Assembly: GCF_000336935.1 (NCBI RefSeq)
Contig: NZ_AOME01000069.1
Location: 1-64,000 of the forward strand
DNA from: Halococcus salifodinae DSM 8989
GTDB taxonomy: Archaea > Halobacteriota > Halobacteria > Halobacteriales > Halococcaceae
Length of the DNA: 64,000 nt
Direction of reading: 5' to 3'
Numbering within the stretch: the first letter of the stretch is position 1; every line of letters starts with the position of its first letter. The notes under the pieces are model-generated. The model was given only the letters and a program-made list of their open reading frames with translations. It did no database searches and was not told where the DNA came from. This document shows positions 1,478 through 44,421 of this stretch, piece by piece. The position numbers were made by a program, and so were the translations under genes.

Positions 1478-2815
1478 ATGCGAGCGTACAAAGCGAAGGC
1501 GGTCGAGCGCATCGAACTCCCCGATCGCGAGGCGCGCGAGCGCCACCTCCGTGAGGCGGGCTACAACGCCTTCGAACTCGACGCCGATGCGGTGTTCGTC
1601 GATCTCCTGACAGACAGCGGGACCGGGGCGATGAGCGACGAGCAGTGGGCGGCGCTACACCGCGGCGACGAATCGTACGCCGGCAGCGAGAGTTTCCAGC
1701 ACCTCGAATCCGCGGTCGAAGACGTGATGGGCTTTTCGCGCATCGTCCCTGCCCACCAGGGCCGCGGCGCGGAGAACGTCCTCTATGGCGCGCTGCTTGC
1801 GGAGGGCGATTACGTCCCGAACAACACCCACTTCGACACGACCCGAGCGCACATCGCGAACGCGGGTGGCGAGCCCGTCGACTGCCCGATCGAGAGCGAG
1901 TCGGGGGACGCATTCCAGGGAAACCTCGATGTCGATGCGGTTCGGGAGCTCGCGAGCGAGGTCGGCGCAGAGCGGATCCCCGCCGTCGTCGTCACGATCA
2001 CGAACAATTCGCTGGCCGGACAGCCCGTCAGCATCGAGAACCTCCGTGCGGCGCGCACCGTCGCGAACGACCTCGACGCACGGCTCATCGTCGACGCCTG
2101 CCGGTTCGCCGAGAACGCCTACTTCGTCACGCAGCGTGAGGCCGAGTTCGAGGACGAAAGCGTCGCCGACGTGGCCCGCGAGCAGCTCGCGGTCGCCGAC
2201 GCGATCGTGGTGAGTGGGAAGAAGGACGGCCTCGCCAACGTTGGCGGGTTCGTCGGCGTGCGCGCGGACGACGACGAACTGTACGAACAGGCCCGACAGC
2301 GTGGAATTCTCTACGAGGGCTTTTCGACCTACGGCGGGATGGCGGGCCGCGATCTCGAAGCGATGGCGGTCGGGCTGCGCGAAGCGGTCGAGAAGCCCTA
2401 CGTCGAATCGCGCGTCGAGCAGGTCGCCGAACTCGGTGAGTTGCTTCAGGAGGTCGGCGTGCCGATCCGCACGCCGACCGGCGGTCACGCGGTCTACGTC
2501 GACGCTGGCGCATTCCTGCCTGAAATTCCCCGCGAGGAGTTCCCGGGCCAGGCGCTCGTCTGCGCGCTCTACCGCGAGGGCGGCGTTCGCGGGGTCGAAC
2601 TCGGCGAGCTCGCCTTCCCCGGAACCGAACGAGACCAGCTCGTCCGGCTCTGCCTTCCCCGCCGGACGTACTTCCGGGACCACCTCGAACACGTCGCCGA
2701 GACGTTCGCGGCGGTCGCGGAGCGCCGCGATGAGCTCTCGGGGTACGAGATCGTCGACGAACCCGAAATGAAGGAACTGCGCCACTTCAGCGCCGAACTT
2801 CGACCGATCGAGTGA
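1478..2815 (+). CDS. tnaA: Tryptophanase (tryptophan indole-lyase)
   Basis: This is a PLP-dependent beta-eliminating lyase (aspartate aminotransferase fold) that would split tryptophan into indole, pyruvate and ammonia. The family pattern is followed throughout: LLTDSGTGAMS near residue 43, PAHQGRGAEN near 91 for cofactor phosphate binding, VDACRF near 205 with the aspartate that pairs with the pyridine nitrogen, and SGKKDG at 246-251, whose second lysine should form the Schiff base. The 445-residue length is normal. No tryptophan permease or leader peptide lies beside it, unlike enterobacterial tna operons, so uptake and control must be elsewhere. Tyrosine phenol-lyase is the main alternative, since the two enzymes are homologous. 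Confidence 0.88.
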   Translation: MRAYKAKAVERIELPDREARERHLREAGYNAFELDADAVFVDLLTDSGTGAMSDEQWAALHRGDESYAGSESFQHLESAVEDVMGFSRIVPAHQGRGAENVLYGALLAEGDYVPNNTHFDTTRAHIANAGGEPVDCPIESESGDAFQGNLDVDAVRELASEVGAERIPAVVVTITNNSLAGQPVSIENLRAARTVANDLDARLIVDACRFAENAYFVTQREAEFEDESVADVAREQLAVADAIVVSGKKDGLANVGGFVGVRADDDELYEQARQRGILYEGFSTYGGMAGRDLEAMAVGLREAVEKPYVESRVEQVAELGELLQEVGVPIRTPTGGHAVYVDAGAFLPEIPREEFPGQALVCALYREGGVRGVELGELAFPGTERDQLVRLCLPRRTYFRDHLEHVAETFAAVAERRDELSGYEIVDEPEMKELRHFSAELRPIE

Positions 2816-2848
2816 GAAATACGGTGCGGTGAGTCGTCTACCGGGCGG

Positions 2849-3370
2849 TCAGTCGACGACCTGCTGGCAGTCGCCACAGAGGTGCTGTCGTTTGACGTCG
2901 ACCTCGCGTACCGTCGGCGAGAAGTTCATCACGCATCGGTCGTCGTCGCAGTGTTCGAGGCCGAGCGTGTGGCCGATCTCGTGGACGACCTCTTTGCGGA
3001 CGCGCTCTGAGAAGACATCGTCCTCGGTGCGTTCGGAGCGGCCGCCGTCGGCGGGTGTCTGGAGCCGGTAGGTCGAGACCACGCTGCCGTTGCCCGAGAG
3101 GTAGGCGAGCCCGAACACGTAGTTGCGCCGGCGGTAGAAGAGATCCTGGGTGGTGAGAGCGATGTTCTTCTCGGCCGCGCCGACCCGACCCGCGAGTTCG
3201 ATGAACGCCTCGGCACGGTACTGCCCGCGGCCCTCGTCGTAGGCGTCAGCCGGGAGCGAACGGGCGTCGTGGAGCGTGGCGTCGCAGTCGTAGACCGATC
3301 GGAGCCCGGCCGAGGCTGCCCGCGTGATCGACGCGGGGACGTCGCCGACCGGCACGATGTCGACGTGCAT
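2849..3370 (-). CDS. amzA: Archaemetzincin, zinc metalloprotease
   Basis: A 173-residue cytosolic protein with the archaemetzincin zinc signature: HEIGHTLGLEH at 130-140 followed by C141, C146, M148, C165 and C168. The three histidines and the glutamate form the catalytic zinc site of metzincins, and the four cysteines form the extra structural zinc site peculiar to this family. The methionine after the third histidine fits the met-turn. Length matches the archaeal family. Physiological substrates are unknown for the family. The start at 3370 gives the usual MHVDIVPVGD beginning. It converges on tnaA with a 33-base gap and is divergent from the UPF0146 gene. Confidence 0.92.
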   Translation of the reverse strand: MHVDIVPVGDVPASITRAASAGLRSVYDCDATLHDARSLPADAYDEGRGQYRAEAFIELAGRVGAAEKNIALTTQDLFYRRRNYVFGLAYLSGNGSVVSTYRLQTPADGGRSERTEDDVFSERVRKEVVHEIGHTLGLEHCDDDRCVMNFSPTVREVDVKRQHLCGDCQQVVD

Positions 3371-5823: not shown

Positions 5824-8082
<2,259 letters not shown>

Positions 8083-8511
8083 GCCGACCCTCTTCGGGGA
8101 CGGGGTAAAAAATCTATCCGAAAGAGATTTTCGACGATCGACGAACTACGTGGCCTGTCGTGGAGTGACGCGTGGGTGCGGTTGCGGTCGGCGGTGCGGG
8201 CCTGGAGGATGAAGGGCGAGGGTGCGACCGTAGGGAGCGCCCGAGGGCTTCGGCGGTGCTGTGCGGAACGGGTGCGGTGCGGAAAGCGCCAGAAATTCTA
8301 CCGCGAGCGCCAAAGGCGCTCGCGGGTATTTTTAGTCCAGGTTTTTACAAGGAGTGGTCCCCGCAGCGAGTCGGCGGAGCCGACGAGCGAGGAGACCGAC
8401 GTGGTTCGAAAGACGCCGGAGGCGTCTTTCGTCATGCCGAGACGGCGGAGCCGTCTCGTAGCACAGTAAAAATGTGGTAGAGATAAGTGCGCTCAGGACG
8501 GAGTTCCGTCG
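8083..8511. other. Intergenic region with hairpin cluster
   Basis: No believable gene. The two overlapping open frames here (to 8469 and 8480) change character along their length and are explained by the strand-symmetric hairpins. The left 25 bases should carry the maeB promoter, and the right end the ctaA promoter. Confidence 0.55.
8301..8458. repeat. Four consecutive perfect triloop hairpins
   Basis: Four inverted repeats each enclose exactly three bases: 8301-8325 (11-bp stem, loop AAA, followed by a T-rich stretch), 8370-8384 (6 bp, loop GGA), 8407-8431 (11 bp, CGAAAGACGCC/GGCGTCTTTCG, loop GGA) and 8438-8458 (9 bp, CGAGACGGC/GCCGTCTCG, loop GGA). The sequence between hairpins 1 and 2 contains GGTTTTTACAAGGAGTGG. 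This could be a structured RNA, a stack of terminators between two genes, or a member of a dispersed palindromic repeat family. Confidence 0.8.
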
Positions 8512-8997
8512 ATGGGACTCCGATTTCGGCACTTGGCTGCCGTCACCACCGGCATGACGTTCGCGCTCATCCTGCTCGGAGTGTACACCGCCGCGGCGGG
8601 CGCGGGACTGTCGTGTGGGGCGCGGTGGCCGCTGTGCAACGGCGCGGTGTTCGGGCTGTTCCCGGCGAACTGGCCGAGCTTCATCGAGTGGTTCCACCGC
8701 CTCGTCGCGATGATCACTGGATTCTTCATCCTCGGGACGACCTACGTGGCGTGGCGGGACGGGAAGAGCCGCCGGACCCGCATCGCGAGCACGGTCGCGC
8801 TCGTCGTGCTGCCGGTGCAGGTCCTGCTCGGCGGGGCCACCGTGACGATCTACACCGCGCTGGTCCAGGTAACTCACCACGCCGCCGCCCTCGTGATCTT
8901 CGCCGCCCTGATCGCCACCACCGTGTGGGCGTACGAAACGCCCGACACCAACCCAACGAGCGCCGGTACCGCCACCGGGATGAGCGCCGACGACTGA
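8512..8997 (+). CDS. ctaA: Heme A synthase, half-size archaeal CtaA/Cox15
   Basis: Converts heme O to heme A for haem-copper oxidases, in the cytoplasmic membrane. The 161-residue protein has four predicted helices, half of the eight in bacterial CtaA. It keeps a cysteine pair in an external loop (GLSCGARWPLCNG near residues 35-47) and histidines for haem ligation at the helix ends: WFHRLVA near 62 and VTHHAAA near 125. Such four-helix CtaA proteins are known in archaea and are thought to act as dimers. The C-terminal 20 residues are polar and low-complexity. No cytochrome oxidase subunits are adjacent. Confidence 0.85.
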   Translation: MGLRFRHLAAVTTGMTFALILLGVYTAAAGAGLSCGARWPLCNGAVFGLFPANWPSFIEWFHRLVAMITGFFILGTTYVAWRDGKSRRTRIASTVALVVLPVQVLLGGATVTIYTALVQVTHHAAALVIFAALIATTVWAYETPDTNPTSAGTATGMSADD

Positions 8998-36641: not shown

Positions 36642-37061
36642 ATGAGCGATCAGGAGCCGAGCAGCGAGACGCTCGGACGACGGGCTGGCGAGGAAATCGG
36701 GCAGCATCTCGGTGGCCTCGCGGGACGAGCCGTTGGCGAACTGCTCACGACCGGACTCGCCGGCGTCGGCGTACCGACCGGCTCCACCGGCGGCGCTGCG
36801 GCCGACACGACGACCGGCGATCGGGACGACACCACCCAACAGGACGTGGACGAGGAGAGCGAGACGACCGAAGAGCGTACCGAGAGCGATGAGAACGACG
36901 AAAGCGACACGGGGTCGGGACGCCCCGCCTCGCGTGCAGACCTCGAAGCGATGTCCTATCGGGAACTCCAGCAGCTCGCGAAGGACGTCGACGTGACCGC
37001 GAATCTCGCGCGCGAGGAGATGGAAGACCGACTCGTCGAAACCCTGGACCTCGACGAGTAA
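36642..37061 (+). CDS. Acidic gas-vesicle-locus protein with Gly-rich helix and C-terminal SAP/Rho-N-like motif
   Basis: 139 residues in three parts: a Gly/Ala-rich amphipathic segment at 10-48 (LGRRAGEEIGQHLGGLAG, then RAVGELL), an acidic low-complexity linker at 55-95, and a C-terminal helical motif (EAMSYRELQQLAKDVDVTAN, then EEMEDRLVETL) that resembles the Rho N-terminal/SAP helix-extended-helix seen in proteins of some actinobacterial gas vesicle clusters. The same layout recurs in the protein at 40134. It is convergent with gvpO with three bases between the stops. Function unknown; a vesicle accessory role is inferred from location. Confidence 0.65.
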   Translation: MSDQEPSSETLGRRAGEEIGQHLGGLAGRAVGELLTTGLAGVGVPTGSTGGAAADTTTGDRDDTTQQDVDEESETTEERTESDENDESDTGSGRPASRADLEAMSYRELQQLAKDVDVTANLAREEMEDRLVETLDLDE

Positions 37062-37064
37062 GCG

Positions 37065-37571
37065 CTATTCGAGCGTTTCGTCGTTGGTGTCTCCACGTCG
37101 GTACCGCCGGAGCCGGCGGTATCCTCTCACGTTGCCGTCGGCGTCGAGGTCGATTTCGTACCGCCCGAGGATGTCCTGGGTGTCCGGGATCGAGTTCCGT
37201 TCGATCACTTCCACCGTGGAGTACCAGCCGTCGTCGTCGGCCCGGACTTCGGTGATCCCGTCGAGCGGGCGGCCGATCAGGTCAGCGGCCACACTTCGGA
37301 CTTGGTTACGGATGTCGATGATGCCGAGTCCGTTCCCGTTCGATCCGTCGTCGACCGACTCGTCGCCGTCACCATCTCCGCCGCCGTCACGGTCGTTTCC
37401 ATCGTCCGCGACGCTGTCGAGGCGCTCGTCGATCGCCTCGGTGGCTCCGGTGCGGTCCTCACCGTCGGTTTCTTCCTCACGGATCTCCCGAAGTGTCTCC
37501 GGGTCGTCGATCTCGTCGAGCTGGGCTTCGAGTTCGTCGATGGTGTGATCGCTGGGGTCGAGGTCGGCCAT
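37065..37571 (-). CDS. gvpO: Gas vesicle protein GvpO
   Basis: 168 residues. The N-terminal 80 are acidic and low-complexity; the conserved GvpO domain covers about 84-165: VRSVAADLIGRPLDGITEV, then DGWYSTVEVIERNSIPDTQD and ILGRYEIDLDADGNVRGYRR ending in RRYRRG. GvpO is one of the eight proteins needed for vesicle formation in Halobacterium and is thought to help early assembly. It lies 126 bases downstream of gvpA on the same strand; the gvpC and gvpN genes that normally separate them are absent. Confidence 0.9.
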   Translation of the reverse strand: MADLDPSDHTIDELEAQLDEIDDPETLREIREEETDGEDRTGATEAIDERLDSVADDGNDRDGGGDGDGDESVDDGSNGNGLGIIDIRNQVRSVAADLIGRPLDGITEVRADDDGWYSTVEVIERNSIPDTQDILGRYEIDLDADGNVRGYRRLRRYRRGDTNDETLE

Positions 37572-37697: not shown

Positions 37698-38030
37698 TTA
37701 CTGCTCGGCCTCTTGTTCTTGCTCTTCGCCCGTCTCCTCGATTCGGACTTCGGGTTCGTCGGGTTCGGGCTGGACCATCGGGGACGTGCCGAGCTCGAGG
37801 TTCTTCAAGTCATCGAGCTCGCCGGACTGGCTCGCCATTTCGAGCTTTGATATCTCCTTGCTGTAGTGGAGGAAGGTGTCCACCGACGCGACGACCACCC
37901 GTGCCTCGACGGTCAGGATCTCGATTCCGACGACCGACACCCGTGCCCAGATGTCGATGACGATCCCCTTATCGAGGATGCGGTCGACCACTTCTGCGAG
38001 GCTCGCCGTACTCGGTCGTTCACTTGCCAT
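37698..38030 (-). CDS. gvpA: Gas vesicle major structural protein GvpA, with C-terminal extension
   Basis: The ribbed shell protein. Residues 1-68 are a typical GvpA core: [20 protein letters not shown], then [20 protein letters not shown] and [11 protein letters not shown]. The length is 110 residues, whereas haloarchaeal GvpA is usually about 76-80; the extra 35-40 residues are acidic and end in a Glu/Gln-rich stretch ([13 protein letters not shown]). The ATG at 38030 gives the normal N-terminus. A CATATG element centred about 27 bases upstream (38053-38058) could serve as the TATA box of a leaderless mRNA. Divergent from gvpF. Confidence 0.93.
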
Positions 38031-38184: not shown

Positions 38185-38814
38185 ATGGCGAGCACACACC
38201 TCTACACGTACGGGATCACCGACGATGGCGTCGAGTTCGAGACCGAAGGCGTCGGCGACGCGACCCGCGTGTACACGGTCGAGCACGGCAGCCTCGCGGC
38301 GATCGTGAGCGACAGCGAGACGATGGAGCCGGATCGAAGCGACGAGAACCTCCGGGCGCACGACGACGTGCTCCAGGAGCTCCTGTACCGTGACGGCGGC
38401 CGGACGGTCGTGCCGATGCAGTTCGGAATGGTGTTCAAGAACGCCCGTGCGCTGAAAGGCGTCCTGCGCGGCGGTCGACGGGCGTTCCGGAAGGCGCTGA
38501 ACGACGTCGAGGGCCACGTCGAGCTGGGACTCAAGATCCTCGCCGACGAGGGCGCGACGGTCGACCGTGAGGCGATCATCGCAGCGGTCCAAGAACGGCT
38601 CGATCCGGTGAGCGACGGCGAGGCCGAAAACGGACTGTTCAGCGACCGACTCGTACTCAATCGGTCGTATCTCGTCGATCGCGACGACCGGGCGGCGTTC
38701 GACGAGGCCGTCGACGCGATCATCGACGAGTACGGCGAGACCTTTACTGTCCAGTACACCGGCCCGTGGGCACCGTACAGCTTCGTTGACATCGAGATCG
38801 GGGCCAAACGGTGA
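38185..38814 (+). CDS. gvpF: Gas vesicle protein GvpF
   Basis: 209 residues. The GvpF/GvpL family pattern is complete: MASTHLYTYGITDDGVEFET at the start, VVPMQFGMVFKN near 72, and the ending TVQYTGPWAPYSFVDIEIG. GvpF has two domains joined by a linker and binds GvpA and other accessory proteins in the early vesicle nucleation complex. First gene of the ten-gene rightward operon; gvpG starts one base after its stop. Confidence 0.93.
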   Translation: MASTHLYTYGITDDGVEFETEGVGDATRVYTVEHGSLAAIVSDSETMEPDRSDENLRAHDDVLQELLYRDGGRTVVPMQFGMVFKNARALKGVLRGGRRAFRKALNDVEGHVELGLKILADEGATVDREAIIAAVQERLDPVSDGEAENGLFSDRLVLNRSYLVDRDDRAAFDEAVDAIIDEYGETFTVQYTGPWAPYSFVDIEIGAKR

Positions 38815-38815
38815 G

Positions 38816-39067
38816 ATGTTCGTCGTCGACGACCTCCTCGTGCGGCCGTTCGTCTCGCTGCTCAACGTCGTCCACGCGATGGCGATCGAGGAGCTGTACG
38901 ACACCGAGGCGATCCGCGACGACATCAAGGAGAACCGGCTGCTGTTCGAGATCGGCGAGCGCTCCCGCGAGGAGTACGAGGAGCGCCGAACTCGGCTCGA
39001 ACGACAGCTCGATGTGGCCGAACAGGCGCGAGAGAACCTCCAGGGGAAAGTCGAGATCAAACGATGA
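38816..39067 (+). CDS. gvpG: Gas vesicle protein GvpG
   Basis: 83 residues, MFVVDDLLVRPFVSLLNVVH followed by a long charged helix with ENRLLFEIGERSREEYEERR, the usual GvpG pattern of a short hydrophobic N-terminus and a coiled-coil-like rest. GvpG is essential in Halobacterium and interacts with GvpF in the accessory complex. The ATG at 38816 is one base after gvpF; the stop overlaps the gvpH start (ATGA at 39064). Confidence 0.92.
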   Translation: MFVVDDLLVRPFVSLLNVVHAMAIEELYDTEAIRDDIKENRLLFEIGERSREEYEERRTRLERQLDVAEQARENLQGKVEIKR

Positions 39068-39537
39068 GTGACAAACCCACGATCCGCGGACTGATCGGCA
39101 ACGCACTCCGTGATGCGCTCGAAGCGGCCGCTGACGCGGACGATGACGGGCGCGCGAGCCGAACCGGCAGCGTCACTGACGGTCGCCGTCGCGCGGAGTA
39201 CGGCATTACGGTCGGGACTCTCCGGCCCGGCGAGGTACCGAGCGACGCCGACGGTTCGAGTCGGGCGGCCGCCCTCGAAACGACCGACACCGAGTACGCC
39301 ACGAGCGTTCGGCGCGTCGAGGACGACCTCGTCGTCACGGCCGACCTCCCTGACGTCGATCCCACGACGCTCGCTGCCGGTGTCGACGAAAAATCCGGGA
39401 CGCTCTCGATCGCCGCCGACGACCGACTGCTCACGCGGGTGGAACTGCCCGACGGCGAGTTCGTCGTCGATGGTGCGTCGTTCAACAACGCAGTTCTCGA
39501 AGTGTTCCTCCACCCTACCGAGGATACCAGGCAATGA
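39064..39537 (+). CDS. gvpH: Gas vesicle protein GvpH (Hsp20-like)
   Basis: 157 residues. An acidic N-terminal half (about 1-75) is followed by an alpha-crystallin-like domain: TSVRRVEDDLVVTADLPDVD near 81, then SGTLSIAADDRLLTRVELPD near 117 and NNAVLEVFLHP at the end. Haloarchaeal GvpH is a small-heat-shock-like chaperone that is not strictly essential. It overlaps gvpG and the next gene by four bases each, supporting coordinated translation. Confidence 0.88.
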   Translation: MSDKPTIRGLIGNALRDALEAAADADDDGRASRTGSVTDGRRRAEYGITVGTLRPGEVPSDADGSSRAAALETTDTEYATSVRRVEDDLVVTADLPDVDPTTLAAGVDEKSGTLSIAADDRLLTRVELPDGEFVVDGASFNNAVLEVFLHPTEDTRQ

Positions 39538-40118
39538 CAAACAACAATCCCGATCTCACGCCCGACCGATCGACGAACGAACACACCGATGTCTCGGGTG
39601 ACACGCTGCCGACGGAAGCGCAGATCGTGTTAACCGACGGCGGTGAGAACGAATCCGGAAACGATGGGGCTGAGGACGGCGAAAACGGGGATGGAACGAG
39701 CCTCCTCTATCTCGATCTGAGCGGCCTGTTCGTCGACCTGCTCGGTGTCGAGATCGAACTGAACAGGGTCGAGCTGGATCTCTCGGCCGTCCCGGGATCG
39801 GGGAACCTCCTCGGCAATCTGCTGTCGGGGGTCGTGGGCCTGCTCGACGACGTGGCGGGGGCGCTCGGTGGGCTCGTTCCCGACGGTGAGATCAGTTCCG
39901 GCGACCTGCTGCCGGAGATCGAGATCCCATCGACGTCCGACGTACTGTTCGGGGCGATCAACGTCGTCCTCGATGCAGTCCTCGACGCACTCGGCGACGA
40001 CGAAGCAGCCGCGGACGGCGATAGTGGAACTGGCGGGGACGAAAACGATGGGGAGAACGAAAGCGATGAAGATGTCGAGGGGAACGAAGACGACGAAGAC
40101 GACACCGAGGACGACTGA
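39534..40118 (+). CDS. Gas vesicle locus protein X: central LGNLL hydrophobic domain between acidic tails
   Basis: 194 residues. Residues 1-55 are polar/acidic; 56-105 carry LYLDLSGLFVDLLGVEIELN, then RVELDLSAVPGSGNLLGNLL and SGVVGLLDDVAGALGGL; from about 120 DLLPEIEIPS leads to a short helix (VLFGAINVVLDAVLDAL), and the last 40 residues are almost only Asp/Glu/Gly/Asn. The V-x-L-D-(x)-A-x-x-G-x-GNLLGNLL-x-x-V-x-GLLD pattern resembles a domain I recall from uncharacterised secreted bacterial proteins, but here no signal peptide is present. It overlaps gvpH by four bases and occupies the place of gvpI. Function unknown; scaffold or hydrophobic interaction with shell proteins is a guess. Confidence 0.7.
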   Translation: MTNNNPDLTPDRSTNEHTDVSGDTLPTEAQIVLTDGGENESGNDGAEDGENGDGTSLLYLDLSGLFVDLLGVEIELNRVELDLSAVPGSGNLLGNLLSGVVGLLDDVAGALGGLVPDGEISSGDLLPEIEIPSTSDVLFGAINVVLDAVLDALGDDEAAADGDSGTGGDENDGENESDEDVEGNEDDEDDTEDD

Positions 40119-40133
40119 CAGCCACGATCACCC

Positions 40134-40631
40134 ATGAGCCAACGAGACGAAACCGCCGAAAAGATCTCGGAACTGAAAGCACAGCTCGGCTCCGACGGGG
40201 GCATGAGCGGACTCCTCGACAGCGGTACCGACGACACCGCCGAGAGTGAGTCCAGTGAGGACGAATCGGACGCCCCAGATACCACGACTTCGGGCAGTGC
40301 CGATCTCCCCGAGATGGGCGAATCGGTCGGCCGAACGCTCGGCGGGCTGATCGGTCGCCGACTGGGCGAGGCGATCGGTCGGGAGTTCGAACTCGACGAG
40401 CGGATGGTCACGCTCGCGACGAGCTATCTCGACACGATGGAGGACGGAGAGGGAGCCGGGCGTCTCGTCGGGAGCTCGACCGATGAGACCGACGAGACCG
40501 ACGACGAAACCGAAGCGGACACCGATTCCTCGGAGCTACCCGAAGACCTCGACGAGCTGTCGACCGGGGAGCTCCAGTCGCTGGCCGATCAGCTGATGGG
40601 CGAACTCGAAGACCGCTCGGAGGACGGATGA
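40134..40631 (+). CDS. Gas vesicle locus protein Y: acidic protein with GRxLGGLIGRRLGEAIG helix
   Basis: 165 residues. A short basic/acidic N-terminus (ETAEKISELKAQLGSDGGM), an acidic spacer, then GESVGRTLGGLIGRRLGEAI near 62-81 and LDERMVTLATSYLDTMEDG near 87; a second acidic spacer; then a C-terminal helix LDELSTGELQSLADQLMGEL. The Gly-rich helix plus acidic linker plus L-S-x-x-E-L-Q-x-L-A ending parallels the protein at 36642, suggesting they are distant paralogues. It is 15 bases after X and three before Z. No known Gvp family matches. Confidence 0.65.
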   Translation: MSQRDETAEKISELKAQLGSDGGMSGLLDSGTDDTAESESSEDESDAPDTTTSGSADLPEMGESVGRTLGGLIGRRLGEAIGREFELDERMVTLATSYLDTMEDGEGAGRLVGSSTDETDETDDETEADTDSSELPEDLDELSTGELQSLADQLMGELEDRSEDG

Positions 40632-40634
40632 GCC

Positions 40635-41594
40635 GTGAGCGACCAGTCGACTGCCGACGGTGAGGGCGTCGAGGAGACGCTCGACGAGCTGTCCGAGACG
40701 GTCGAAAAGACGGACGAAGGCGACAGTACGGGTGACGAGACGGGAACCGATGCCCCTGACATCGACGCTCTGATCGACCGGGCGATGGGCGACGTCGAGG
40801 CGCTGCTCACCGCCCACGAAAGCGACGACCCCTTCGAGGAGGTCCGTGAGGACGTCGACGATCTCGTCGCGGTCATCGAGGAGATCGAGGAGCTCCTCGA
40901 AACGATCGATCTCACCGATCTCCCCGAAGCCGTCGACCTCTCGGAGCTACCGGCCGCGATCGAGGCGGGCGAGGTTCCCGACGCGATCGCGGAGGGCGAT
41001 CCCGGCGAGGCCGTGAAGTATCGCAAACTCCTCCAGATCGTCGAACTCGGCGAACTCTGGAACGCAGTCGACGTCCGCGAGTTCTGGCGGAACAAACGCG
41101 AACTCGACGATGCCGCCGGCGACGTGACCGACAACGGGGACGACGAGGACGGTCCGATCGAGAAGCTCCGATCCCTCGTCGGTGACGGCGGGGACGACAG
41201 CGATACCGACGCCGGTGGCGAGGGTGCCGAGAGCGCGGTCGCCACCGAAGACGGTACCGAACGCGACGATATCGAGGTGCCGTCCGAGACGATCCAGCAG
41301 CGGGTTCAATCGAAGCTCAGCGACGCCGTCGGGGAGTTCAGGGAGAGCTTGCTCGACACCAGAGAACGGGTCAAGGAGCTCAAAGAGGAAAACGAGGCCC
41401 GAACCGAGGACGTCGAACAGCCCGACTCGCGGAATCCGACGGCTTATTCCTCGATCCCGAGTACACGAACCGACATGAGCGGCACCACGGCGTTTTCGAC
41501 GGTGCCCGAGGAGACGCGGTACTCCTCGGCCCCGAATCGTCCACGGCTCTACGGGTCGCGCCTCGACCGGGCGGCGGAGGAGCACGATGAGTGA
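40635..41594 (+). CDS. Gas vesicle locus protein Z: acidic coiled-coil-like protein with conserved C-terminal tail
   Basis: 319 residues with a GTG start at 40635. Residues 45-110 form charged helices (DDPFEEVREDVDDLVAVIEE, then LETIDLTDLPEAVDLSELPA). The most protein-like core is about 110-160 (EAVKYRKLLQIVELGELWNA, then DVREFWRNKREL). An acidic linker and another helical segment (VQSKLSDAVGEFRESLLDTR) follow, and the end is Tyr/Ser/Pro-rich: TAYSSIPSTRTDMSGTTAFS, then TVPEETRYSSAPNRPRLYG. I recall similar tails in haloarchaeal hypothetical proteins but cannot name the family. The end overlaps gvpJ by eight bases. Confidence 0.65.
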   Translation: MSDQSTADGEGVEETLDELSETVEKTDEGDSTGDETGTDAPDIDALIDRAMGDVEALLTAHESDDPFEEVREDVDDLVAVIEEIEELLETIDLTDLPEAVDLSELPAAIEAGEVPDAIAEGDPGEAVKYRKLLQIVELGELWNAVDVREFWRNKRELDDAAGDVTDNGDDEDGPIEKLRSLVGDGGDDSDTDAGGEGAESAVATEDGTERDDIEVPSETIQQRVQSKLSDAVGEFRESLLDTRERVKELKEENEARTEDVEQPDSRNPTAYSSIPSTRTDMSGTTAFSTVPEETRYSSAPNRPRLYGSRLDRAAEEHDE

Positions 41595-42084
41595 CAGCGG
41601 TGGCCCAACGCGGCGAAGCGACAGCCTCGCGGACGTGGTCGAGATGCTGCTCGACAAGGGTGTCGTGATCAACGCCGACATCGCGGTTTCGGTCGGTGAT
41701 ACCGAGCTCCTCGGTGTCCAGCTCCGGGCGGCGCTCGCCTCCTTCGAGACCGCCGCGGAGTACGGACTGGAGTTCCCCGACGGAACGGACATGCGTCGGG
41801 TCGAGGCGGCCTCGGACCGGACACCGGTCGAGGAACTCGACGACGAGCGCGACGAGCCGGTGATCAACGAGAGCGGGTCGTGGCTCTCCGAGCCGCCGAT
41901 CACGAGCGACGAGAGCGAATCCGACGACGACGCGAAGCAACCCTCGGAGCCCGGCGTCGGTGCGAGACCGCGGATCGGCGGACGTTCCGGCGGCGAGACC
42001 GACGAGACCGAGGGCGGCAACGGTGACGAGGACGAACCGGACGAATCGGACGAAACCGCCGGGGAAAGCGATGACGAAGATTGA
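41587..42084 (+). CDS. gvpJ: Gas vesicle protein GvpJ (GvpA-like), with acidic extension
   Basis: 165 residues. The first 70 form a GvpA-like domain: LADVVEMLLDKGVVINADIA, then VSVGDTELLGVQLRAALASF. Position before gvpK and the DKGVVINADIAVSVG pattern identify GvpJ rather than GvpA or GvpM. Halobacterium GvpJ is about 114 residues; here the extra tail from about 100 is Glu/Asp/Gly-rich. GvpJ is a minor shell or tip protein needed for vesicle initiation. Its end overlaps gvpK by 14 bases. Confidence 0.88.
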   Translation: MSDSGGPTRRSDSLADVVEMLLDKGVVINADIAVSVGDTELLGVQLRAALASFETAAEYGLEFPDGTDMRRVEAASDRTPVEELDDERDEPVINESGSWLSEPPITSDESESDDDAKQPSEPGVGARPRIGGRSGGETDETEGGNGDEDEPDESDETAGESDDED

Positions 42085-42394
42085 CCTCGACGGCGACGAC
42101 GCCGCCGACGGGCTGATGACGCTGGTGCTCGCGGTCATCGAGATCCTCGTCGACGCCTTGGAACGCGAGGCGATCCGCCGGATGGAGTCGGGCGAGCTGA
42201 CCGACGAGGAGGTCGAGCGCCTCGGCACGCAGCTCGCGGCAGTCGAGGAAGAGATCGATCGGCTCGAAGCCGAGGCGGAGGTGTCCGAACCGGTCGACGA
42301 TCTTCGGGGTGAACTCGACGAGCTCGTCACCGATCTCGTCCATCGGGCGAACGAATCCGACCGGGCCGAGCAGGGCGTGATTCGGGATGAGTGA
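42071..42394 (+). CDS. gvpK: Gas vesicle protein GvpK
   Basis: 107 residues. The family pattern is clear: GLMTLVLAVIEILVDALERE near 15-34, then AIRRMESGELTDEEVERLGT and an acidic helical remainder. GvpK is one of the essential accessory proteins. The ATG at 42071 lies inside the gvpJ end; the stop lies inside the gvpL start (8-base overlap). Confidence 0.92.
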   Translation: MTKIDLDGDDAADGLMTLVLAVIEILVDALEREAIRRMESGELTDEEVERLGTQLAAVEEEIDRLEAEAEVSEPVDDLRGELDELVTDLVHRANESDRAEQGVIRDE

Positions 42395-43226
42395 GTCGGC
42401 GAGCGAGTTCACAACTGGCCGATATCTCTACTGTGTCGTGACCGTCGACGACGAGACGGCCACCGGTGAGCAACTCGCACGGACGGGTGTCGACGACGAA
42501 CCGGTGTATCTCGTCGTCGAGGACGATCTCGGTGCGGTGGTCCACACCTGCGACGCACTCTACGACGCTGCCGATCCCGACGTGGTCCGAAAGTGGCTCC
42601 TCGATCACCAGGCGACGATCGATGCGGCGGGCGAGCGCTTCGGGACGCCGTTGCCCTTCCAGTTCGACACCATCCTGACCGGCGACGACGACCGCGTGCG
42701 CGAGTGGCTCACCGAGGAGTCGGCAACGCTAACCCCCCATCTCGATACGCTGGCGGATCACTGGGAGTACCGAGTCGAAGTCAGCCGGGACGACGCGGTT
42801 CTCGACGAGGACCTCGCGGCCGACGACGATCGACTCGCGGAGCTCGTCGATCGGATCGAGTCGGCGGGCGAGGGAACCGCTCATCTCCTCGAAACCCAGT
42901 ACGAGCAGCGCCTCGACGAACTACGCCACGAACGCCAGGCCGAGCGAACGCGGGAACTGGCCGAACGACTCGATCCGCTCGCCAGCGAGATTCGAGAGCT
43001 CTCGCCAGAGCGCACGACGACGCTCGACGACGAGGATCGTGCGAACGACACGTCCCAAGACGACAGCGAACGTACCACACAGGCCCGCGTCTCGCTGCTG
43101 GCACACGAATCGGACGCCGAGGCGATCGGCGACACGCTCGACGAGGTGGCGGCCGAGTCGGGTGTCGAGGTGCGCTTCACTGGCCCGTGGCCACCGTACA
43201 CGTTCGCCCCGACGTTCGACGAATGA
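42387..43226 (+). CDS. gvpL: Gas vesicle protein GvpL (GvpF/L family)
   Basis: 279 residues, homologous to GvpF at 38185. TTGRYLYCVVTVDDETA at the N-terminus, RFGTPLPFQFDTILTGDDDR near 86, and the C-terminal hallmark VRFTGPWPPYTFAPTF. A Glu/Arg-rich helix at about 165-215 and an acidic linker extend it beyond GvpF. In Halobacterium GvpL interacts with most accessory Gvps and is viewed as an assembly platform. The stop overlaps the gvpM start by four bases. Confidence 0.92.
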   Translation: MSESASEFTTGRYLYCVVTVDDETATGEQLARTGVDDEPVYLVVEDDLGAVVHTCDALYDAADPDVVRKWLLDHQATIDAAGERFGTPLPFQFDTILTGDDDRVREWLTEESATLTPHLDTLADHWEYRVEVSRDDAVLDEDLAADDDRLAELVDRIESAGEGTAHLLETQYEQRLDELRHERQAERTRELAERLDPLASEIRELSPERTTTLDDEDRANDTSQDDSERTTQARVSLLAHESDAEAIGDTLDEVAAESGVEVRFTGPWPPYTFAPTFDE

Positions 43227-43492
43227 AACCCTCGAAACCCGAGAACGGCGCGGTGGTCGATCTCGTTGACGCGATCCTTCGCGACGGAGTCGTGCTCCAG
43301 GCCGACGTCATCATCTCGGTCGCCGACATCCCGCTGGTGGGGTTGAAACTCCGCGCCGCACTCGCGGGGATGGATACGATGACCGAGTACGGCATCTTCG
43401 AGGAGTGGGACGCGGCCCACCGACGACGCGCGCTCGACGCCGAGGATGCGGACACGGACGACGAACAGACGAACACGAAAACCGACGAATAA
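43223..43492 (+). CDS. gvpM: Gas vesicle protein GvpM (GvpA-like)
   Basis: 89 residues: VVDLVDAILRDGVVLQADVI, then ISVADIPLVGLKLRAALAGM and a short polar tail. The DGVVLQADVIISVADIPL pattern and last place in the operon fit GvpM, a hydrophobic GvpA paralogue required in small amounts for vesicle formation. It closes the operon and converges with the lipoprotein gene 37 bases away. Confidence 0.9.
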   Translation: MKPSKPENGAVVDLVDAILRDGVVLQADVIISVADIPLVGLKLRAALAGMDTMTEYGIFEEWDAAHRRRALDAEDADTDDEQTNTKTDE

Positions 43493-43529: not shown

Positions 43530-43859
43530 CTATTCGCTCGTCTCGTTCGGTGCTTGGCCGGTTTCGAGTCCCTCGCCTTCGGGAACCGTCGCGGTGTTCT
43601 CGAACGGCGTCCCGGTTTCCTTGGGTGGTGTCTGCCCCGTTTCGAGCGCTTCGCCGTCGCTGCCGGTGTCGTCACTACCATCGCTGCTTTCGCTCCCACT
43701 ACTGTTACTGTCGCTGCTTTCGCCGTTGTCACCATTGGTACTGTTACTTTCGCCGTCGCCGCTCTCGTTGCCACTTCTGCTGGCGAGCTGTGAACAGCCG
43801 GCGAGCAACGCGAACCCAGTCATACTTCCCCAACCGGCGAGATACTGCCGTCGATCCAT
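43530..43859 (-). CDS. Small lipoprotein with Ser/Glu/Gly-rich body
   Basis: 109 residues. MDRRQYLAGWGSMTGFALLAGCSQ is a lipoprotein signal, with a twin-arginine at residues 3-4 and LLAGC as lipobox. The rest is Ser/Asp/Gly/Asn low-complexity up to about 70, followed by two copies of an E-(A/G)-LETGQ-(T/A)-P segment separated by PKETGTPFENTATVPEGEG. No globular domain is evident. The ATG at 43859 is chosen so that the twin-arginine is at the N-terminus; an ATG two codons upstream is also possible. Function unknown. Confidence 0.65.
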   Translation of the reverse strand: MDRRQYLAGWGSMTGFALLAGCSQLASRSGNESGDGESNSTNGDNGESSDSNSSGSESSDGSDDTGSDGEALETGQTPPKETGTPFENTATVPEGEGLETGQAPNETSE

Positions 43860-43968
43860 TATCATATCGATCGGACCGTGCAACGAAAACGTTCGGATAT
43901 ACGTCTCGGGACGCCGCCGCCACCAGCCGGCGTATCGTTTAGGGGCGTCGATCGACAACCCTGCTCCG

Positions 43969-44421
43969 ATGACCGCGAGCACCTACCGCGACGTCCGCTC
44001 GATCGCGGTCCACGCCGAGGACGTGGTGGCCGCGATCGAGGCCAACCGGAACGACGGTCCCCGGACGGTGCTCCGGGTGACGCCGCCGTTCGACGGCCGA
44101 ATGCGGGCGCGACTCCACGTCGAACACGACGGCGAGTACGCCGCAAGCGACGATCCGGACCCGATCCACGTCGCGCCTTCGCGGCTCGTCGCGGACCCGC
44201 CGGTCCGCCCGACGCCGGACGGGACCGCCGATCGACTCCGCGACGATCCCGACGCGGCGTACTCCGTCGAGACTCATCACGAGCGCCACGCGGCGGCGAT
44301 GACGGCGTGGCGCGAGGCGCTCGCTGGATCGATCGTCGACTCGATCGCGCTCGATGGACCGGACGGCCCCCACAGCGGATCGGCCGATCCCCACAGCGTC
44401 GACGTGGTCGTGCTCGGCTGA
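43969..44421 (+). CDS. Conserved haloarchaeal hypothetical protein
   Basis: 150 residues from the ATG at 43969: TYRDVRSIAVHAEDVVAAIE, then RTVLRVTPPFDGRMRARLHV and IHVAPSRLVADPP. The mixed alpha/beta look without signal peptide or helices suggests a cytosolic protein. I recall close relatives in many haloarchaea of unknown function. It precedes the small HTH-like gene by 44 bases and may be in one operon with it. Confidence 0.7.
   Translation: MTASTYRDVRSIAVHAEDVVAAIEANRNDGPRTVLRVTPPFDGRMRARLHVEHDGEYAASDDPDPIHVAPSRLVADPPVRPTPDGTADRLRDDPDAAYSVETHHERHAAAMTAWREALAGSIVDSIALDGPDGPHSGSADPHSVDVVVLG

Follow-up and report, generated by a model that had tools for sequence, protein, structure and literature searches.

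Halococcus salifodinae carries a long acidic gvpI and an X-Y-Y' gene set in a GvpC-less gas-vesicle cluster

The window analysed here, i.e. the whole stretch of 64,000 nucleotides from Halococcus salifodinae DSM 8989, contains a gas-vesicle (gvp) cluster. On the minus strand lie gvpO (37065-37571; PF05800, E 4.6e-28) and gvpA (37698-38030; PF00741, 53.6 bits). Beyond gvpO and convergent with it, the plus strand encodes a Y-family protein of 139 aa, here termed Y' (36642-37061), which was assigned by the Y-family HMMs and by its alignment with Y. All further gvp genes are read from the plus strand. The gene gvpF (38185-38814) was assigned by the GvpF/L family HMM and its position, gvpG (38816-39067) by its position and a G-family HMM, with the start read from the sequence, and gvpH (39064-39537) by PF05455 (38.3 bits against a cut-off of 22). 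They are followed by X (194 aa, 39534-40118), Y (165 aa, 40134-40631) and Z (319 aa, GTG start, 40635-41594), and then by gvpJ (41587-42084; NF046090, 144.9 bits, above the cut-off), gvpK (42071-42394; PF05121, 84.7 bits), gvpL (42387-43226; NF045778, 364 bits) and gvpM (43223-43492; PF00741, 50.6 bits, and position). With Z as its gvpI, the cluster is of the haloarchaeal kind without GvpC and reads gvpO, gvpA, gvpF-G-H-[X-Y]-I-J-K-L-M; a GvpC profile search of the organism's own genome found no GvpC. Directly downstream of gvpM, the minus strand holds an ORF resembling haloarchaeal lipoproteins (43530-43982; FALLAGCSQL, then a Ser/Asp/Glu-rich stretch).

The order of X, Y and Z is the same in the three close relatives L080, L081 and L031. 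The dN/dS values were 0.30-0.56 for X, 0.32-0.51 for Y, 0.17-0.24 for Z and 0.19-0.47 for Y', indicating purifying selection on all four. Because the order is kept and dN/dS stays within 0.17-0.56, X, Y and Z are real and conserved genes. A preliminary description of this locus had placed three coupled ORFs of 194, 165 and 319 residues between gvpH and gvpJ, and both the coordinates and the junctions (H/X -4, X/Y +15, Y/Z +3 and Z/J -8 bp) agree with it, although its gene set was incomplete in that the related Y' beyond gvpO had been overlooked. The strong acidity it attributed to the three proteins is likewise correct (27-30% D+E, pI ~4.05). However, the recognised neighbours are comparably acidic, with D+E contents of 29% in gvpJ, 32% in gvpK, 26% in gvpL and 30% in gvpO, and acidity is therefore no special mark here.

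It had also been claimed that X, Y and Z replace gvpI and that no named Gvp family resembles any of them. In Pfam and NCBIfam scans no model exceeded its cut-off for X, Y or Z, and the second claim stands for X and Y as far as families with a Pfam or NCBIfam profile are concerned; it fails for Z. As judged by profile comparison, Z is the genuine gvpI of the cluster in a long acidic form, and X and Y stand beside gvpI, which is not replaced. An HMM built from short GvpI only scored the window Z at 56.9 bits (E 1.9e-15 against 18,907 ORFs), and the best among 5,000 versions of Z with a shuffled C-terminus reached 10.7 bits. When the long C-terminal profile was compared with short GvpI by hhalign, a probability of 99.4 was obtained over 95 columns, that is, most of short GvpI. 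Iterated HMMs whose seeds were kept apart (two Halobacterium GvpI only, or four long Z proteins only) converged on 115 ORFs each, in 113/115 loci. The preliminary description had itself named a diverged GvpI among the three as a finding that would speak against it, and Z is of that kind, a diverged and extended GvpI found by sequence and profile comparison.

The homologous GvpI core lies at the C-terminus of Z (41265-41591, plus strand), where it was delimited by alignment with short GvpI and by an AlphaFold2 helix of pLDDT ~90. The motif series NPTAYSSIP...FSTVP...RLYGSRL of Z corresponds to NPxAxSTMP...STVP...RLYGxRL in Halobacterium GvpI (L066, L073). Position agrees as well: Z overlaps gvpJ by 8 bp, lies downstream of gvpH with X-Y intervening, and stands immediately before gvpJ, as does gvpI in nearly all of the ~110 loci compared. 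A GvpA/J/M-family gene directly follows GvpI in 107/112 cases, and relatives without X-Y at that place (L069, L070, L082, L086) show the plain order H-Z-J. Z has the C-terminal core (helix, NPxAxST, STVP, RLYGxRL) of the p-vac and c-vac GvpI of Halobacterium salinarum and occupies their place between gvpH and gvpJ, but those proteins have 113-144 aa and a pI of 10-12, whereas Z has 319 aa, a pI of ~4 and, at its N-terminus, a long acidic helical extension. Being small and basic is a trait of Halobacterium-type GvpI and not of the long subfamily; the length and acidity of Z place it in the latter. In 2012, two distant gvpI homologues with >200 extra N-terminal residues, Nmag_0338 of Natrialba magadii and Htur_2370 of Haloterrigena turkmenica, were described from clusters that have no gvpC, D or E (PMC3403918). 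By that published description they are of the same kind as Z, and Z is thus an already known kind of protein.

The AlphaFold2 model of Z (mean pLDDT 65) predicts a helical N-terminal half, a confident helix at residues 217-258 and an extended motif tail; a Foldseek search of this low-confidence model against the PDB gave no match at E < 0.001. For Z, GvpQ reached 17.3 bits in NCBIfam against a cut-off of 100 (E 0.0042) and matched only 3/57 homologues at E 0.01, which we take as coiled-coil noise, and the match of PDB 9e5c to the GvpI profile (E 5.8e-14) was discarded as a biased match to low-complexity repeats.

Neither X nor Y has a significant match to Pfam, NCBIfam or PDB families. X consists of a conserved hydrophobic core (YLDLSGLFVDLLGVEIELNRVELDLSAVPGSGNLLGNLLSGVVGLLD) flanked by acidic arms; in the 25-sequence alignment the core spans ~50 residues and reads YLDLEGLFLDLLGLEVDLDEVVLDITA..G.GNLLGNLLSAVAGLLD. 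Four strands and two helices are suggested by its AlphaFold2 model (mean pLDDT 56), for which, at this low confidence, Foldseek returned nothing from the PDB at E < 0.001. A likeness of the X core to a motif of secreted actinobacterial proteins was considered; it was unsupported by tblastn against plasmids and by a viral-contig scan, and is not claimed. Some X homologues are much longer and carry CarboxypepD_reg domains. In L120, L122 and L125 they have ~775-845 residues; the X core is preceded by CarboxypepD_reg/Big_1 domains and followed by amphipathic segments that recur (SPISALRSALGRVW...).

In Y, a glycine-zipper-like segment (GESVGRTLGGLIGRRLGEAIG) is joined by an acidic linker to a C-terminus (LSTGELQSLADQLMGELEDR) that is conserved in the 26-sequence alignment. 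It scores 13.2 bits against the glycine-zipper model PF13488, below the gathering cut-off of 25, and one of 26 Y members matches the glycine zipper at E 0.0061; Y is thus not assigned to that family. Y' shares the glycine-zipper-like segment and the acidic linker, and its C-terminus is Rho_N/SAP-like. Rho_N matched the C-termini of 10/15 Y' members (best E 2.5e-4) and SAP matched some, all below curated cut-offs, with the window Y' itself at 16.5 bits against a Rho_N gathering cut-off of 24.9. In L080, L081 and L031, Y' is found at the same place, convergent with gvpO.

In the window, the additional genes X and Y travel as a pair, placed between gvpH and gvpI, and Y' is a third member beyond gvpO. 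X was found in 27 of the roughly 110 gvp loci compared, and Y follows it within ~150 bp in 24 of these 27. The pair takes at least four places in the loci. It lies between gvpH and gvpI in the window and in L031, L080, L081, L067/L145, L132 and L141; in other loci it is found upstream of gvpO, in one orientation or the other (L032, L110, L114, L129 and L134; L108, L113, L119, L120, L122, L124, L125, L143 and L149), or after gvpM (L083, L084, L089, L093 and L095). It can also be far from the gvp cluster. Among the 121 X copies listed with a gvpL position, 24 are within 15 kb of gvpL, 43 share its contig at a greater distance and 54 are on another contig. The unlinked copies examined (L201, L203-L209, L212-L228) are X-Y-Y', and in most of them a fourth gene, W, comes next. 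X-Y-Y' is a discrete, compact cassette across haloarchaea that is often ended by W and changes its place.

The N-terminal helical region of W is like that of long GvpI, and so is its C-terminal tail, in which ST(V/M)P motifs recur, but RLYG is missing. On this sequence likeness, W is a diverged GvpI paralogue. In the tree, 20 W proteins form one clade (support 100), and the window Z falls outside it among the gvpI of gvp clusters. Z was therefore ruled out as the cassette's W by the tree and by its RLYGSRL motif; a search for W in the window organism's own genome finds Z alone.

The preliminary description had taken full operon coupling as evidence for a role of the three genes in vesicles. 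For X and Y the gas-vesicle link is strongly supported, by class-wide co-occurrence and not by operon coupling. In a sample of 394 haloarchaeal genomes of the class, GvpL was detected in 162, X in 130 and Y (counted at E 0.001) in 150. X and GvpL occurred together in 129 genomes, X alone in 1 (G151), GvpL alone in 33 and neither in 231 (Fisher p 5e-71, a value inflated by kinship among the genomes and not to be read literally). Y is present in 130/130 X-bearing genomes, and GvpL in 136/150 Y-bearing ones. Six genera have members with and without gvp genes (g7, g8, g12, g23, g37 and g67), and in these X is confined to the gvp-bearing members. The one discordant genus, g59, is that of G151, whose X-Y-Y'-W cassette (L228) occurs without detectable GvpL as the sole such case among the 394 genomes and is most readily explained as what was left after a loss. 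Homologues lying mostly outside gvp loci had been named in advance as evidence against a vesicle role; this is literally so for X, since 97/121 placed copies are separated from gvpL by >15 kb or are on a different contig, yet gvpL is present in 129/130 X-bearing genomes. Of the 33 genomes with GvpL and without X, at least 17 have GvpC-less clusters, and X is therefore not needed everywhere.

X is absent from all Halobacterium-type loci, i.e. those with GvpC and short GvpI. The GvpC profile matched in 17/394 genomes; 15 of them are the genomes of such short-GvpI loci, and none of the 15 carries X. Among 109 loci with gvpK and GvpI (about five of which are second fetches of the same record), all 92 with long GvpI are without gvpC, and all 17 with short GvpI have it. 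On the GvpL tree, the short/long GvpI distinction requires one change and X requires 12. The association between GvpC and GvpI form is therefore a single historical split and not repeated evidence. Haloarchaeal GvpC has no detectable homology to the window proteins: the GvpC HMM, run over the loci, matched GvpC ORFs only and found nothing in X, Y or Z, and with an hhalign probability of 0.8% for its N-terminal domain, the extension of Z was not accepted as a GvpC homologue. GvpC is proposed as a functional counterpart only, long GvpI and X-Y-Y' occurring where it is absent. Loss of GvpC gives fragile, misshapen vesicles, and some species with C-less clusters have been reported as vesicle-negative (PMC4390858).

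X-Y-Y' is very probably associated with the gas-vesicle system. We put a probability of roughly 0.75 on the reading that Z is the long gvpI of the cluster and that X, Y, Y' (and W) serve as accessory proteins of GvpC-less haloarchaeal gas-vesicle systems. Halobacterium GvpI binds GvpH, GvpL and GvpF, and its loss leads to very long vesicles (PMC7688916). The GvpI core of Z would dock to GvpH/L/F as in Halobacterium, with the repeated ST(V/M)P tail motifs perhaps serving GvpI and W alike as the contact to this assembly complex. X through its hydrophobic core and Y through its glycine-zipper segment may associate with GvpA or the growing shell, which the acidic extension of Z and X-Y-Y' as a whole might touch. 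In GvpC-less systems the set could then provide some of the shaping or strengthening that comes from GvpC in Halobacterium; that X-Y-Y' and the Z extension take over this part of GvpC's role is offered only tentatively.

The proteins X, Y and Y' might instead be regulators in place of GvpD/GvpE, with the SAP/Rho_N-like C-terminus of Y' binding DNA or RNA. Among the loci compared, GvpD/E genes accompany short GvpI only and are therefore missing from X-Y loci as well, and the Rho_N matches in 10 of 15 Y' C-termini (best E 2.5e-4), with SAP in some, point the same way. However, none of these matches reaches its curated cut-off, DNA-binding features are absent from X, and the fourth cassette gene is a GvpI paralogue. 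Moreover, short-GvpI loci without D/E (L101, L128, L136, L137 and L150) are also without X; the absence of X therefore tracks GvpC and short GvpI, not D/E, and we regard a regulatory role as improbable. Slightly less probable again is another cell-surface or membrane function of X-Y-Y'-W, merely carried along with the gvp genes, for which the operon place would be incidental. The majority of X copies do lie outside the gvp cluster, some long X proteins contain CarboxypepD_reg and Big_1 domains, which are common in exported proteins, and G151 retains the cassette without GvpL. Against this, X and gvp genes co-occur despite their physical separation (129/130), a GvpI paralogue is often the last gene of the cassette, and in several lineages the cassette lies inside or beside the gvp cluster.

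That three unrelated novel genes took the place of gvpI is hardly credible. Such a view could draw on the failure of any Pfam or NCBIfam model to exceed its cut-off for Z and on the contrast between long, acidic Z and short, basic Halobacterium GvpI, but Z has a complete conserved GvpI core, groups with the gvpI of H-I-J clusters, and belongs to a long form published as a gvpI homologue (PMC3403918).

The accessory-protein reading bears on a haloarchaeal gas-vesicle parts list that has been drawn mainly from Halobacterium and Haloferax mediterranei. Among the sampled gvp-bearing genomes, GvpC occurs in ~1/10 and X with Y in ~4/5, and X and Y have neither Gvp names nor Pfam/NCBIfam family models. 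For X-Y-Y'-W as a whole, we found no Pfam or NCBIfam family, no PDB relative and no description in open-access papers, subscription literature being outside the search. It is conceivable, if doubtful, that there are two haloarchaeal kinds of system. One, the kind studied so far, has GvpC and a short basic GvpI; the other, which is commoner, has no GvpC, and its long acidic GvpI would form an alternative shell-finishing or strengthening apparatus with X-Y-Y'-W. If so, GvpC-less vesicles would bear surface or assembly proteins unlike the known ones. If X and Y act in assembly, they would help to explain stable vesicles from GvpC-less clusters and could supply new parts for engineered vesicles. 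What began as an operon oddity is thereby a defined group of four or five proteins that is open to testing.

The same H-X-Y-Z-J order as in the window is found in Halocatena (H. salina plasmid, L067), where the X-Y-Z homologues, annotated as hypothetical proteins, have 41-43% protein identity to the window's and no Y' was found on the gvpO side. Unlike the window, the Natrialbaceae-type clusters examined (L069, L070 and the family f4 loci) have no X-Y between gvpH and gvpI, and their X-Y-Y' is remote. The X-bearing genome G022, matched weakly by the GvpC profile, also contains a separate second cluster (L231, G022:C1:2318000-2337000) with short GvpI, gvpN, gvpO and gvpC; the gvpA-C-N-O genes lie ~9 kb off, and since the genome also has a long-GvpI GvpC-less cluster, both kinds occur in one cell. 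On a Halocatena marina plasmid (L074), gvpG and gvpJ are separated by a decayed fragment of GvpI, and a full-length long GvpI stands beyond gvpO (2801-3007 and 7488-8618), and gvpI appears to have shifted its position within the locus. A solitary long GvpI without gvp neighbours is found on a Halalkalicoccus jeotgali plasmid (L071, 5797-6582). Finally, between gvpA and gvpF, L068 (2523-4581), L099 and L139 carry an additional gvpO-like gene and, after it, a member of the Y family.
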